DNA from: Microcaldota archaeon
Lineage (GTDB): Archaea; Micrarchaeota; Micrarchaeia; Micrarchaeales; Micrarchaeaceae
Reading direction: 5' to 3'
Assembly: GCA_021834785.1 (NCBI GenBank)
Contig: JAKBRJ010000005.1
Location: forward strand, 1 to 43,984
Length of the DNA stretch: 43,984 bases
Shown: positions 8,119-25,972 of the stretch, in pieces
How the letters are laid out: the number at the start of each line of letters is the position of its first letter
How positions within the stretch are numbered: position 1 is the stretch's first letter
Position numbers and translations under genes: made by a program
Notes under the pieces: generated by a model
Told to the model about the DNA's origin: nothing
Database searches by the model: none
Seen by the model: the letters and a program-made list of their open reading frames with translations, nothing else

Positions 8119-8189
8119 ACAATCCCCAAGATTATAATAGATAAGATAAGCATTACAATTATAAATCTGATTCGGCAAATAGGATGCAT

Positions 8190-8275
8190 GCAGGGATAGC
8201 AAAGCCTGGCCAAATGCGACAGGTTCAGGGCCTGTTCCCGTAGAGGGTTCGAGAGTTCAAATCTCTCTCCCTGCA
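8190..8275 (+). tRNA. tRNA-Leu (anticodon CAG)
   Basis: All arms fold. The acceptor stem is GCAGGGA with TCCCTGC, and the discriminator is A. The D stem is GCA/TGC. The anticodon stem is ACAGG/CCTGT around loop TTCAGGG, giving anticodon CAG for codon CUG. A long variable arm (CCC/GGG) marks it as a class II tRNA, as required for Leu. The T arm is GAGAG, TTCAAAT, CTCTC. There is no intron and no encoded CCA. Its 3' end marks the left edge of the accessory island. Confidence 0.95.
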
Positions 8276-8286
8276 TTTACGATTTC

Positions 8287-22022: not shown

Positions 22023-22514
22023 CTACTGCGAAGGTATCATGTACACGCATGAAACGCCTGCGTTTGTCGGGCATGATGACTGTGCGCTTACATTAACCAG
22101 GTACGTGCCGGTAGACGTTATGCTTGCAAGGTTTCCGCTTACATTCACGGGCGTGTATGCGGTAACATAATCTAGGCCAGCATTGGTTCTAACCTCGAAT
22201 ACTATCTCATGGCCTACAGTATTGTTAAGGCTGCCGACCAGTATATTCTCGACATCTGGCGGGACGTTCAACAATATCAGCTGCTTAGCAGGGAAGCCTT
22301 GGCTTCCGACGGATGTAGCTATGCCTGCCATCTTGCTTGCAGACTGCTGCGCTTCGGTAGTTGAAAGAGTAGAAGATGACGATGATATTTGTATGAATGC
22401 AAGTACGACTATGGGCAGTAGTATTATCAATCCAAAAGACAGCGTTATGAGCAATTCAAGGCTTGATTGCGCGGCCTTCCTTTTATGTAATTCATACCTT
22501 CCTATTATATCCAT
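22023..22514 (-). CDS. Pilin-like protein with class III signal peptide
   Basis: 163 residues. A short basic leader (HKRKAA) is followed by QSSLELLITLSFGLIILLPI. This is the class III (type IV pilin-like) signal, cut after the leader by an EppA/PibD-type peptidase, with Q+1 and a hydrophobic helix for assembly. The rest is a Ser/Thr/Val-rich exterior domain with two cysteines near the end (SSCPTNAGVSC). It may build a thin pilus or a surface fibre. Its ATG overlaps the CBS gene stop by one base. Confidence 0.75.
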   Translation of the reverse strand: MDIIGRYELHKRKAAQSSLELLITLSFGLIILLPIVVLAFIQISSSSSTLSTTEAQQSASKMAGIATSVGSQGFPAKQLILLNVPPDVENILVGSLNNTVGHEIVFEVRTNAGLDYVTAYTPVNVSGNLASITSTGTYLVNVSAQSSCPTNAGVSCVYMIPSQ

Positions 22515-23650
22515 TACAATACATCCTTGTAGTGTTCGTAAGCATTCCTTTTTTCCTTCAGCCTTATTATCTCTTTCTTTAGCTTCTCGAGTGCCTCTGC
22601 AAGAGTTCTGTCTAGCAGGAAATCGGTCTCGTGCACCTGCAGCGTGCCGAAAGACTTCAGCGATGCCCTTATCTTTATTTCATATTGGTCTGATTTTATA
22701 GGCCTTACTCTAATAGATATATAATTTATGTCTGCGCCCCTTATCTTTTCGGTCTTGCTTAGAAATTCCTTGACAGAGTCGCGCACTTCACCCATATACT
22801 GGTATGTCTTTTCATCAAATCCTGACAGCAGTATCCTGTTTTCTTCTATCCCTCTCTGCGATATTAGATATTCCAGAATGTCTGAAACGGTCAATATGCC
22901 GACCGGGGCATTATGCCTCATAATTATCAGGGAGGATATGCTCCGCTCTATCATACGCCTGATGGCGTCTTTGATGGATGCATCAGCATTAATCACTACC
23001 GGGTCCTTGTTGTATATGCCAGATATTGATATGTTTGATGGGTTGTATATATTTTTCCTTATCTCCGGAGCGCGTTCGTTTGTAGATGCATATTTCATCA
23101 CCATATCGGAATGCGTCAATAATCCGGAAAATTTGCCGTTATCCAGCACTACAAGGCGCTTCACCTTGTTCTTTTCCATTGCCGCTTTTGCCTGAGAGAG
23201 ATTGGCATCAGAGGCTATCGCCAATATCGGCGATGTCATTATGCTGCCGGCCTGGACATCATTCTCGACCAATGAAAGCGATAGCATCATCTTAAGCAGG
23301 GTTGAGCGCTTTATGACGCCCATTATCTTGCCATCAGATACAAATGGAAGAGCTTTGGCCTGAATCTTGTAGAAATAGGATATCAGGTCGTTTATGCTAG
23401 TGCTTTGGAAGACTTTAGGCACCCGCACTGCGAACCTTTCGGCAGACATGTCCTTTGAAATCTTCAAACGCATGCCTGATTTATATATTGCTCTCGTATC
23501 TATTACGCCGTAGAACGTCCCCTGCTTATTTATCAGTACAGCTTCGCTTTTTTGTATAGCCGGAATGACCTTAGTTATAGGCATCCTTGAATCGAAAACA
23601 GGAACTTTGGATACGAGCTCTTTTGGTATTGAATCGGATTTGTTTGCCAT
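22514..23650 (-). CDS. Four-CBS-domain protein with C-terminal HPF-like region
   Basis: 378 residues. Four CBS repeats start near residues 12, 78, 138 and 204, the last two with clear SDMV/SDIL ends (TGLL-type and GILTVSDILEYL). These pairs form adenosine-nucleotide sensors. The last 85 residues (RGADINYISIRVRPIKSDQY onward to LAEALEKLKKEIIRLKEKRN) resemble the fold of ribosome hibernation factors (HPF/RaiA), a combination known in archaeal CBS proteins. An energy-sensing ribosome factor is a reasonable inference. It is the first gene before the class III signal-peptide gene. Confidence 0.78.
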   Translation of the reverse strand: MANKSDSIPKELVSKVPVFDSRMPITKVIPAIQKSEAVLINKQGTFYGVIDTRAIYKSGMRLKISKDMSAERFAVRVPKVFQSTSINDLISYFYKIQAKALPFVSDGKIMGVIKRSTLLKMMLSLSLVENDVQAGSIMTSPILAIASDANLSQAKAAMEKNKVKRLVVLDNGKFSGLLTHSDMVMKYASTNERAPEIRKNIYNPSNISISGIYNKDPVVINADASIKDAIRRMIERSISSLIIMRHNAPVGILTVSDILEYLISQRGIEENRILLSGFDEKTYQYMGEVRDSVKEFLSKTEKIRGADINYISIRVRPIKSDQYEIKIRASLKSFGTLQVHETDFLLDRTLAEALEKLKKEIIRLKEKRNAYEHYKDVL

Positions 23651-23720: not shown

Positions 23721-23807
23721 GCCAGGATGGCAGATAGGCCATGCGGCCGCCTGCAGAGCGGCAAAGGCGGGTTCGATACTATTATTGCGAAAATCCCGCT
23801 CCTGGCT
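23721..23807 (+). tRNA. tRNA-Cys (anticodon GCA) with a 16-base intron in the T-loop
   Basis: Acceptor GCCAGGA pairs with TCCTGGC; discriminator T, as tRNA-Cys requires. D stem GCA/TGC. The anticodon stem GCCGC/GCGGC encloses CTGCAGA, so the anticodon is GCA. The T stem GCGGG/CCCGC encloses 23 bases instead of 7. Removing about 16 bases (23777-23792) leaves the perfect loop TTCGAAT. In the precursor TTCG pairs with CGAA, with a three-base AAT bulge on one side and a loop on the other, a relaxed bulge-helix motif for the splicing endonuclease. The intron edges may shift by a base. A TATA-like box lies upstream (about 23690). Confidence 0.93.
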
Positions 23808-23835: not shown

Positions 23836-24270
23836 TCATACATCTAGGACGACATTGGCTTTAAAGCCGTTTGAAGTCTTTGACACTGATAGCGCATACC
23901 TTGACACTCCCTTTATATCAAGCTTCGAAACTTCAGGGTATTTATGCCTGCTTATAAGGGATGCTTCGAATGAGAATCCAGATGTGCGCTTGCGCACATC
24001 CACCTCTTCAGCCATATATGTATATACCCCTTTTGCATCGCTCAAGGAAAGTATGTCCTGAAGGAAGTACCACAGCAACGTCTCTATCGAAGGCGCTTTG
24101 TCCTTCACCTTGAGCCGTATTTTTTTACCAGCAGTTTTGGAAAGTACATCAGTATCGGCATTGACTCCGGACATTGCAAGAAGCGCATTTGAAAAAAGTT
24201 CCGGCAAGGTGCGCCCATATGCTACGAATTCCACGTCAGCGGTATGATTCTTATATATGTATCTTCTCAT
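23836..24270 (-). CDS. Archease (RtcB tRNA ligase activator)
   Basis: 144 residues. Starts MRRYIYKNHTADVEFVAYGR, with the D of TADVEF as conserved metal ligand, then SIETLLWYFLQDILSL and the C-terminal D of VVLDV. Archease helps guanylate RtcB so that it can ligate tRNA halves after splicing. It lies 28 bases from the intron-containing tRNA-Cys, on the other strand. Length is normal. Confidence 0.93.
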   Translation of the reverse strand: MRRYIYKNHTADVEFVAYGRTLPELFSNALLAMSGVNADTDVLSKTAGKKIRLKVKDKAPSIETLLWYFLQDILSLSDAKGVYTYMAEEVDVRKRTSGFSFEASLISRHKYPEVSKLDIKGVSRYALSVSKTSNGFKANVVLDV

Positions 24271-24370
24271 ATGTTCGTCACATTGCTTAATTAATATAAA
24301 ACCAAAAATTATATAATTGAAATGATAATAAACTATGTCCTGTGAAGAGAAGAGTAACTACTGAATTGTG

Positions 24371-25972
24371 ATGATGCCCATTTCGGCTGAGGACATTGGT
24401 GTTTGTGTGGTCTTATTTGGTTCTTATAGGCTGAGGGTTGTCGGCATATCGGCACTACTGGCCGGGTTCATATTAGCTGCAATGAACTCGATACGCATAA
24501 CAGGGCTAAGCGTATCAGATTCAGATCCCTCTACATACATAATCGTAGTAATGCTAATGCTGCTTGTAGCAATAGTGCTATCGGTAAAATATGCCCCAGA
24601 TCCTGAGCTGAAGAAATCTAATGTGGCCATTGGGCTGTCGCTTCTGGCAATCTATGTGCTTGCCATCTCATATGCAAGAGGCGCGATGTCTTTCCTTTTT
24701 ATTTCTTACAGGATAGATGCATTGCTGTTTCCAATAATCCTAGCATCGCTCATAATACTTATATTTGGGATAAAAGGGCTTAAACGCATGAAGTTCCTTG
24801 TCATATACTCCATTTTTGCATCGCCTTTGCTTCTGCTCCCTACCTTCCAGATAAGCTCGCCATTTACGGCATTCAATGCCTATGTAGTTTTTGACACGCT
24901 TAAAGCGATAGGCATCCCGGTCCTGAAAAGCAATCTCACCATAATAGCACCATCTTCGGCGCAGATATCCATAGCGCAGACATGCGCAGACATAGGTGCA
25001 TTCATAGCGCTTATCATGTTCCTGCTGCCAATAGCATATTTTTATTCAGGAAAAATAACCAGCAAGATCAAATGGATAGTATCAGGGGTTGCACTTATGC
25101 TCCTGCTTAATGTGCTTAGGATGTTCAGCATAGCCATAGTATGGGCATATTATGGCATAGGAGCTGCAGTTGGCACCATACACGTGTTCATCGGAGAGGT
25201 GCTCTTTGACATAGCCATAGTGGTAATGATATTGATATCTGGCAGATATGGGCTTAGGATACGCGTTGGCACAGGAAAGCACAGCAAAAATACTGCAAGA
25301 GCCCATCGTGCATATAAGGAGAGGAATAATGCAAACCCTGGGCACATCGCGATGGCTGTATTCGTGCTTGCAGTAGCCTTTGGCTCCATAGCCTATTATG
25401 CAGCAAGCCCATATATCAGGCTTGCAGACGCACCTATATCTAACTTCACCCCCAGTGTGAATATTTCCAATTTCACCGCAAGCGTAAGCCTGATAAGACA
25501 ATTAGAGGCAGGCAGGGGCAACATAACGGTCGTTGGAAGCGGGAGGGATGCAGTAGTGGCGGCAGTGCATATGAATAGCAGCCTGAATGGAAGCACATAT
25601 GTAGTAATAGGAAAGGCTTATCCATATGCGAACAATAGCATCATACAGGAATTTACCGGCAATTCCACACGCTACTCCGGAATGCATGCGCTGATATTAA
25701 AAAATGGCGTGGTGGTACATGCGCTTGAAGGCATATCCAATGGCAGCCTATTCTATGTAAATTATTTTTCATTGCCATATTTCACTGGGGGCAGATACAT
25801 AACCCTGAGCTACGAAATCATATCAAATGATACGGCAGCGTATGGCAGATGCATGGGCAATGATGATGGAGCGGATTACCTTGAATCGGCATTGTATGAT
25901 TATGAGGCGGGTTATTTCGGAGACCCTTATAAATATGTTTTGTGCCCTTCATATCTCATAGCATCGGGATGA
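24371..25972 (+). CDS. Exosortase/archaeosortase-family transpeptidase
   Basis: 533 residues from the ATG at 24371 (a GTG at 24368 is also open). About eight to nine helices. Catalytic cysteine near 205 (AQTCADIGAFIAL), arginine near 250 (NVLRMFSI) and histidine near 271 (GTIHVFIGEVLF) match the exosortase/archaeosortase triad. These enzymes cut C-terminal sorting signals and attach proteins to lipid. After a final helix (about 327-347), 190 residues face outside and are rich in Asn, Ser, Tyr and Gly, an extension that most family members lack. No sorting-signal substrate is seen in this window. Confidence 0.85.
   Translation: MMPISAEDIGVCVVLFGSYRLRVVGISALLAGFILAAMNSIRITGLSVSDSDPSTYIIVVMLMLLVAIVLSVKYAPDPELKKSNVAIGLSLLAIYVLAISYARGAMSFLFISYRIDALLFPIILASLIILIFGIKGLKRMKFLVIYSIFASPLLLLPTFQISSPFTAFNAYVVFDTLKAIGIPVLKSNLTIIAPSSAQISIAQTCADIGAFIALIMFLLPIAYFYSGKITSKIKWIVSGVALMLLLNVLRMFSIAIVWAYYGIGAAVGTIHVFIGEVLFDIAIVVMILISGRYGLRIRVGTGKHSKNTARAHRAYKERNNANPGHIAMAVFVLAVAFGSIAYYAASPYIRLADAPISNFTPSVNISNFTASVSLIRQLEAGRGNITVVGSGRDAVVAAVHMNSSLNGSTYVVIGKAYPYANNSIIQEFTGNSTRYSGMHALILKNGVVVHALEGISNGSLFYVNYFSLPYFTGGRYITLSYEIISNDTAAYGRCMGNDDGADYLESALYDYEAGYFGDPYKYVLCPSYLIASG

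Follow-up and report, generated by a model that had tools for sequence, protein, structure and literature searches.

Does the tRNA-Cys(GCA) gene on this Micrarchaeota contig carry an intron in its T-loop and, if so, where is it cut and by which enzymes? We addressed this for the 43,984-nucleotide stretch of DNA analysed here (the window), and compared it with other genomes; the nearest is G001 (88% complete, 98% of sampled 31-mers in common), to which all genome-wide statements refer. Parsing of the gene resulted in a T-stem, GCGGG/CCCGC, in which all five pairs form, and in an AAAG variable region. The loop within this stem, TTCGATACTATTATTGCGAAAAT, has 23 nt, versus 7 in a standard tRNA. ARAGORN did not detect tRNA-Cys in the unspliced window gene, whether introns were allowed or not. 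After removal of 16 nt the same program recognised tRNA-Cys(gca), and the standard tRNA is restored, with a 7-nt T-loop of the same length as in 115 intronless loops from relatives. The positions of the elements are collected in the table.

Table. Elements of the intron-bearing tRNA-Cys gene in the window, its neighbour, and related loci in the nearest genome.
Feature	Position in window	Strand	Details
tRNA-Cys(GCA) gene, intron-bearing precursor	23721..23807	+	T73 at 23807, no encoded CCA
5' acceptor strand GCCAGGA	23721..23727	+	7/7 pairs with TCCTGGC at 23800-23806
Anticodon arm GCCGC-CTGCAGA-GCGGC	23746..23762	+	anticodon GCA at 23753-23755
5' half of T-arm: GCGGG and T-loop bases 54-59, TTCGAT	23767..23777	+	TTCG forms the exon side of the BHB central helix
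16-nt T-loop intron ACTATTATTGCGAAAA, most likely at 59/60	23778..23793	+	BHB geometry in 30 distinct loops; minimum-energy fold
3' exon: T60, T-stem CCCGC, acceptor TCCTGGC	23794..23806	+	
Archease (PF01951)	23836..24270	-	E 6.8e-22; convergent neighbour of tRNA-Cys
Further T-loop-intron loci of G001			L094 Ala GGC, L095 Arg TCT, L096 Ser GGA, L097 Lys CTT, L099 Arg TCG, L025 Leu CAA

An Rfam scan of the whole window at gathering thresholds returned nothing. This blank says little, since a tRNA-Leu at 8189-8276, detected by ARAGORN, was likewise missed. A reading of the gene as tRNA-Sec was rejected, as the long T-loop accounts for the Rfam score of 16.4 bits (gathering threshold 47) and the anticodon is GCA. 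The T-loop intron pattern described below was matched once in the window and never in 100 shuffles.

We examined how the precursor could present the insert for splicing. TTCG at positions 54-57 pairs with the intronic CGAA at 23787-23790, extending the T-stem, and the resulting 4-bp central helix, 4/4 pairs in the window, has a 3-nt bulge on either side. The T-stem, the 4-bp helix and the 3-nt 3' bulge all appear in the minimum-energy fold of the precursor. Thus, two elements described in the earlier note, a T-stem enclosing 23 bases and a TTCG/CGAA helix with a three-base bulge, are both present. In register past the 5' bulge, the inner helix of the window copy consists of a single C-G pair, whereas 20 of the 30 loops compared have 2 bp or more; so short a helix makes the 5' side nearly a relaxed bulge-helix-loop.

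Next, we compared tRNA-Cys genes across the phylum. The gene was parsed in 75 of 85 genomes of family f1, in 67 genomes of family f2 (70 loops, three genomes giving two) and, beyond the two families, in five of 27 genomes with a match. Left out were the 132 of 301 phylum genomes with no match at E 1e-6 (including 10 of the 85 from f1), 22 of the 27 matching genomes outside f1 and f2, and G015, from which no tRNA-Cys was obtained. An insert lies at the same T-loop site in 34 of the 142 parsed f1 and f2 genomes (32/75 in f1, 2/67 in f2) and ranges from 13 to 31 nt across relatives. The window and G001-G003 share the same tRNA-Cys exon sequence, the genes differing only within the intron, and G019, of the same family, has a 13-nt intron at the same position. 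Among 30 distinct loops, counting that of the window, Watson-Crick pairs make up 117 of the 120 in the central helix (mean of 35.6 and maximum of 54 in 5000 shuffles, kinship ignored). All four pairs form in 27 of the 30 loops, and in none when the partner is slid by 1-3 bases. The 20 loops with an in-register inner helix of at least 2 bp (G-T allowed) compare with a shuffle mean of 4.2, with 0/5000 shuffles reaching 20, again ignoring kinship; the inner-helix sequences differ between genera. Every one of the 115 intronless loops has the standard 7 nt, with Y59 and T60.

Three further observations came from this survey. Locus L193 of G137, outside f1 and f2, encloses 41 nt in its T-loop, which departs from the TTCG/CGAA motif; it was excluded from the counts and is perhaps an independent intron. 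The tRNA-Cys of G269 (L161) is intronless, while the 7 other parsed genomes of genus g6 are intron-bearing, and its sequence resembles genus g16, which hints at gene replacement or contamination. One public record labelled Candidatus Marsarchaeota (L031, G002) shares a genus with a Micrarchaeota-labelled record, and one of the two labels looks wrong.

The motif bears on where the intron is cut. By the BHB rule, cleavage follows the second base of each 3-nt bulge, which in the window precursor gives AT^A on the 5' side and AA^T on the 3' side. The intron would most likely sit at 59/60, in the T-loop and outside the 37/38 position, leaving a mature TTCGATT loop. The earlier note had taken about 16 bases to be removable, and this part stands; the TTCGAAT product that it expected is the less likely outcome. 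The same intron could be cut at 57/58 or 58/59 to yield TTCGAAT, which is also a well-formed T-loop that ARAGORN detects equally well, and the G001 tRNA-Leu(CAA) gene, read by eye, seems to restore TTCAAAT with a register shifted by one (58/59). For tRNA-Cys we consider these earlier cuts improbable. They would place A before T60 in 23 of 30 loops, versus 0 of 115 intronless loops, whereas 59/60 splicing leaves Y59 in 25 of 30, the exceptions being the five loops of genus g6, with A59; the cut rule likewise points to 59/60. The 59/60 register is therefore favoured, since Y59-T60 is found in 115/115 intronless loops.

We then looked for another gene that could supply tRNA-Cys. In G001 the search gave no second intact tRNA-Cys gene: BLAST at E 0.001 returned a single match, and each of the 42 tRNA-model hits was inspected. 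The single-contig genomes G011 and G012 each have one tRNA-Cys match at E 0.001, and both are intron-bearing. ARAGORN named one other G001 locus, L017, as tRNA-Cys(gca) with an anticodon-loop intron. We rejected it as a second tRNA-Cys and read it as tRNA-Ala(TGC), because of G3-T70 and its close likeness to L006, a tRNA-Ala(CGC); the anticodon of L017 moves by one depending on where the intron is placed. Given the single intron-bearing match in G001, G011 and G012, and exons that are identical from the window to G003 with differences in the intron only, the window tRNA-Cys is very probably the working gene. A pseudogene or an assembly artefact would agree with the escape of the unspliced gene from ARAGORN, with the 88% completeness of G001, which makes an unseen second tRNA-Cys possible, and with the f2 genomes G192, G038 and G207, which have two tRNA-Cys genes or copies each, all intronless. 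We regard it as very improbable, since a single tRNA-Cys was detected in each of G001, G011 and G012, every one with the intron, the exons do not differ between the window and G001-G003, and the insert recurs in 34 genomes. Equally improbable is a tRNA that functions with the insert retained in a 23-nt T-loop: the BHB helix persists across insert lengths of 13 to 31 nt, 115 loops parsed from relatives are of the usual 7-nt size, and G001 encodes a matching endonuclease.

To place this gene among the other tRNAs of the genome, the 42 tRNA-model hits of G001 were read by eye, with ARAGORN names for most. They represent 39 distinct tRNA genes, one contig-end duplicate (L024), one non-tRNA (L101) and one 3' half (L342). 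T-loop introns are present in 7 of the 39 genes: Cys, Leu(CAA), Ser(GGA), Ala(GGC), Arg(TCT), Arg(TCG) and Lys(CTT). The same motif fits all of them except Leu(CAA), which is apparently shifted by one base. The six non-Cys spliced loops read TTCAAAT, matching the Leu (L022-L024), Ser (L029) and Lys(TTT) (L003) genes with intronless T-loops. The loop is TTCGAAG in a further Lys(CTT) hit, L004, which lies on a 3.4-kb contig. The Ser(GGA) gene seemingly has an anticodon-loop intron as well, and apparent D-loop introns were seen in L098, L100 and L102 (Gln CTG, Leu TAA and Ser GCT by eye). In two other genomes, tRNA-His(GTG) genes (L339 in G003, L340 in G020) have T-loop introns of the same TTCG/CGAA type.

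We scanned 41 genomes with a pattern that allowed any purine at position 57 and any pyrimidine opposite. This returned 112 matches, 90 in 25 f1 genomes and 22 in 16 f2 genomes, versus 11 and 9 for the reversed pattern; in G001, 5 of 6 matches lie within tRNA. Among the 108 distinct matches of the 41 genomes, the position-57 pair is A-T in 88, G-C in 13, G-T in four and A-C in three. Thus, position 57 covaries with its intron partner across tRNA species (Fisher 5.7e-11, kinship uncorrected).

Removal of such an intron calls for a suitable endonuclease. The 388-residue endonuclease of G001 aligns end to end with ARMAN-2 EndA (PDB 4fz2; E 1e-174, 258/387 identical) and keeps the equivalents of the catalytic residues Y236, H251 and K282 and of the specificity-loop residue K161, numbered as in PMC6379350. 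From this alignment the enzyme is assigned to the epsilon2, broad-specificity type. The need for a broad-range endonuclease, raised in the earlier note, is in this way answered in the nearest genome. The endonuclease family is present in 40 of 41 genomes, and a 4fz2 match in 82 of the 85 f1 genomes. An intron-bearing genome that counts against the scheme is G017 (92% complete, 80 contigs), in which neither the family search nor the 4fz2 search gave an endonuclease match. RtcB was identified in five of six genomes checked, whole in G001 and as a 55-residue piece in G017, and archease in 41 of 41. RtcB carries out exon ligation, and archease is its helper, a cofactor of the ligase.

An archease gene lies on the opposite strand beside the window tRNA-Cys, with a gap of 28 bases as previously described (ORF end at 23836, minus strand). 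This adjacency was rejected as support for the intron, because archease also adjoins intronless tRNA-Cys genes, for example in G007 and G029. Other genes of the window were noted in passing. An ORF at 22514-23650 encodes CBS domains, and its C-terminal part weakly matches the S30AE ribosomal-protein family at a score below the cut-off. An Exosortase_EpsH-family membrane protein is encoded near the archease gene at 24368-25972, and a single ORF at 25995-26975 matches NUDIX (N-terminal) and uracil-DNA glycosylase (C-terminal), an apparent fusion. The archaeal-type threonyl-tRNA synthetase of the window has no match at E 1e-40 in G005, G006, G007, G017, G024, G025 and G036, and in G016, G022, G023 and G032 the match is limited to the first 139-150 residues of the enzyme and lies within a longer frame. 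Two types of threonyl-tRNA synthetase may exist in the family.

The BHB fit, the conservation, the covariation and the epsilon2 endonuclease together identify the insert as a noncanonical BHB intron, as the earlier note had suggested for this tRNA-Cys, and 34 relatives share its anatomy, as do other tRNAs of G001. We propose, with high confidence, that the tRNA-Cys of this genome contains a 16-nt BHB intron at 59/60 that would be excised by the epsilon2 endonuclease, with the exons joined by RtcB. In the transcript, TTCG (54-57) and the intronic CGAA would pair atop the T-stem and leave the AT^A and AA^T bulges, both of which the endonuclease would cut. RtcB with archease would then join the exons into the TTCGATT loop, which would allow a normal T-loop and elbow to form. 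Anatomy, conservation, covariation, the enzymes of the nearest genome and its single tRNA-Cys are observed; from these we infer cleavage and ligation, and their order. The A59 that 59/60 splicing leaves in genus g6 (5 of 30 loops), unlike the intronless tRNA-Cys loops, counts against the proposal; a T-arm common to tRNA-Ala, seen in one genome and discussed below, may account for it.

Comparison with known systems indicates what is shared. Noncanonical BHB introns elsewhere are found in the D-arm, T-arm and acceptor and are best known from Thermoproteales; excerpts of PMC12397907 and PMC6379350 place them in the T-arm or T-loop. The window intron resembles these introns of archaeal tRNAs in its BHB motif, small size, T-arm site and predicted removal by a broad-range endonuclease. 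It differs from the Thermoproteales case in its Micrarchaeota host, in an endonuclease of the epsilon2 and not the (alpha-beta)2 type, and in the one-pair inner helix of the window copy. The closer likeness is to the tRNA introns and epsilon2 EndA of ARMAN-1 and ARMAN-2 (PDB 4fz2, 9w2k), given the alignment of the G001 endonuclease with 4fz2, and a passage of PMC4033280 lists both organisms among archaea with multiple-intron tRNAs. The EndA of G019 is 100% identical to 4fz2, but the window intron differs from the tRNA-Cys intron of G019 in both sequence and length. We place the lineage of the window within Micrarchaeota, close to Micrarchaeum. PMC12397907, which presents an epsilon2 endonuclease RNA complex published in 2025, states that species whose enzymes have specificity loops tend to have introns at a variety of tRNA sites, and that the archaeal enzymes recognise RNA secondary structure and not the L-shape; removal of a T-loop intron would call for such recognition.

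The noncanonical BHB intron models of tRNAscan-SE 2.0 come from Crenarchaeota, Euryarchaeota and Thaumarchaeota, according to an excerpt of PMC8450103. The review PMC4090602 makes no mention of T-arm, T-loop or Micrarchaeum, PMC6125680 names Micrarchaeota and introns, and the titles and opening lines of abstracts among the matches listed contain no report of Micrarchaeota T-loop introns as a class. We claim no priority for a T-loop intron; the kind is already known and this instance is an added example.

Finally, we investigated the history of the intron on an eIF2-gamma tree of 52 of 56 chosen genomes; G007, G025 and G247 had no match, the G124 fragment was left out, and the G237 and G256 inputs are partial proteins (217 and 221 aa). 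On this single-gene tree, where gain and loss are indistinguishable, the intron is clustered (3/500 shuffles score as low) but patchy, with at least 11 changes of intron label, 7 of them forced by well-supported branches. These changes led us to reject one gain with plain inheritance. Copying between tRNA genes is suggested by one genome of genus g6, G266, where the second BLAST match to the tRNA-Cys query is the T-arm of tRNA-Ala(GGC) (L338, minus strand of C11:47994-48026). This gene carries TTCGAAACTTTCATTGCGAAAAT on a GCGGG/CCCGC stem, and 30 of its 33 T-arm bases, intron included, equal those of tRNA-Cys. The tRNA-Ala(GGC) of G001 has a quite different T-loop intron. The T-arm and intron would thus have been copied between the two tRNAs in g6, in either direction, and the A59 of g6 could be explained by such copying because A59 fits tRNA-Ala (TGCGAAT in L006). 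Large-scale intron transposition between tRNAs is described for Thermoproteales in an excerpt of PMC4033280.

A broader picture, which we put forward tentatively as possible rather than probable, is that T-loop position 59/60 is a hot spot in Micrarchaeales, where introns would be gained and lost repeatedly and T-arm and intron may be copied as a cassette. For about one fifth of tRNAs (7 of 39 in G001), splicing by an endonuclease that recognises the BHB alone would come first in maturation, because the T-loop elbow cannot form until the intron is out. This would reverse the order of eukaryotes, whose enzyme acts on relaxed introns only once the elbow is complete.

A T-loop BHB intron is thus ordinary for this Micrarchaeota lineage and uncommon at large. 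As the Rfam tRNA model scores the G001 copy below its cut-off and ARAGORN misses the window gene, automatic annotation could call tRNA-Cys absent from such genomes. The lineage provides dozens of natural epsilon2 substrates in which one site either holds an intron or lacks it, and lets one study how T-loop introns come and go.
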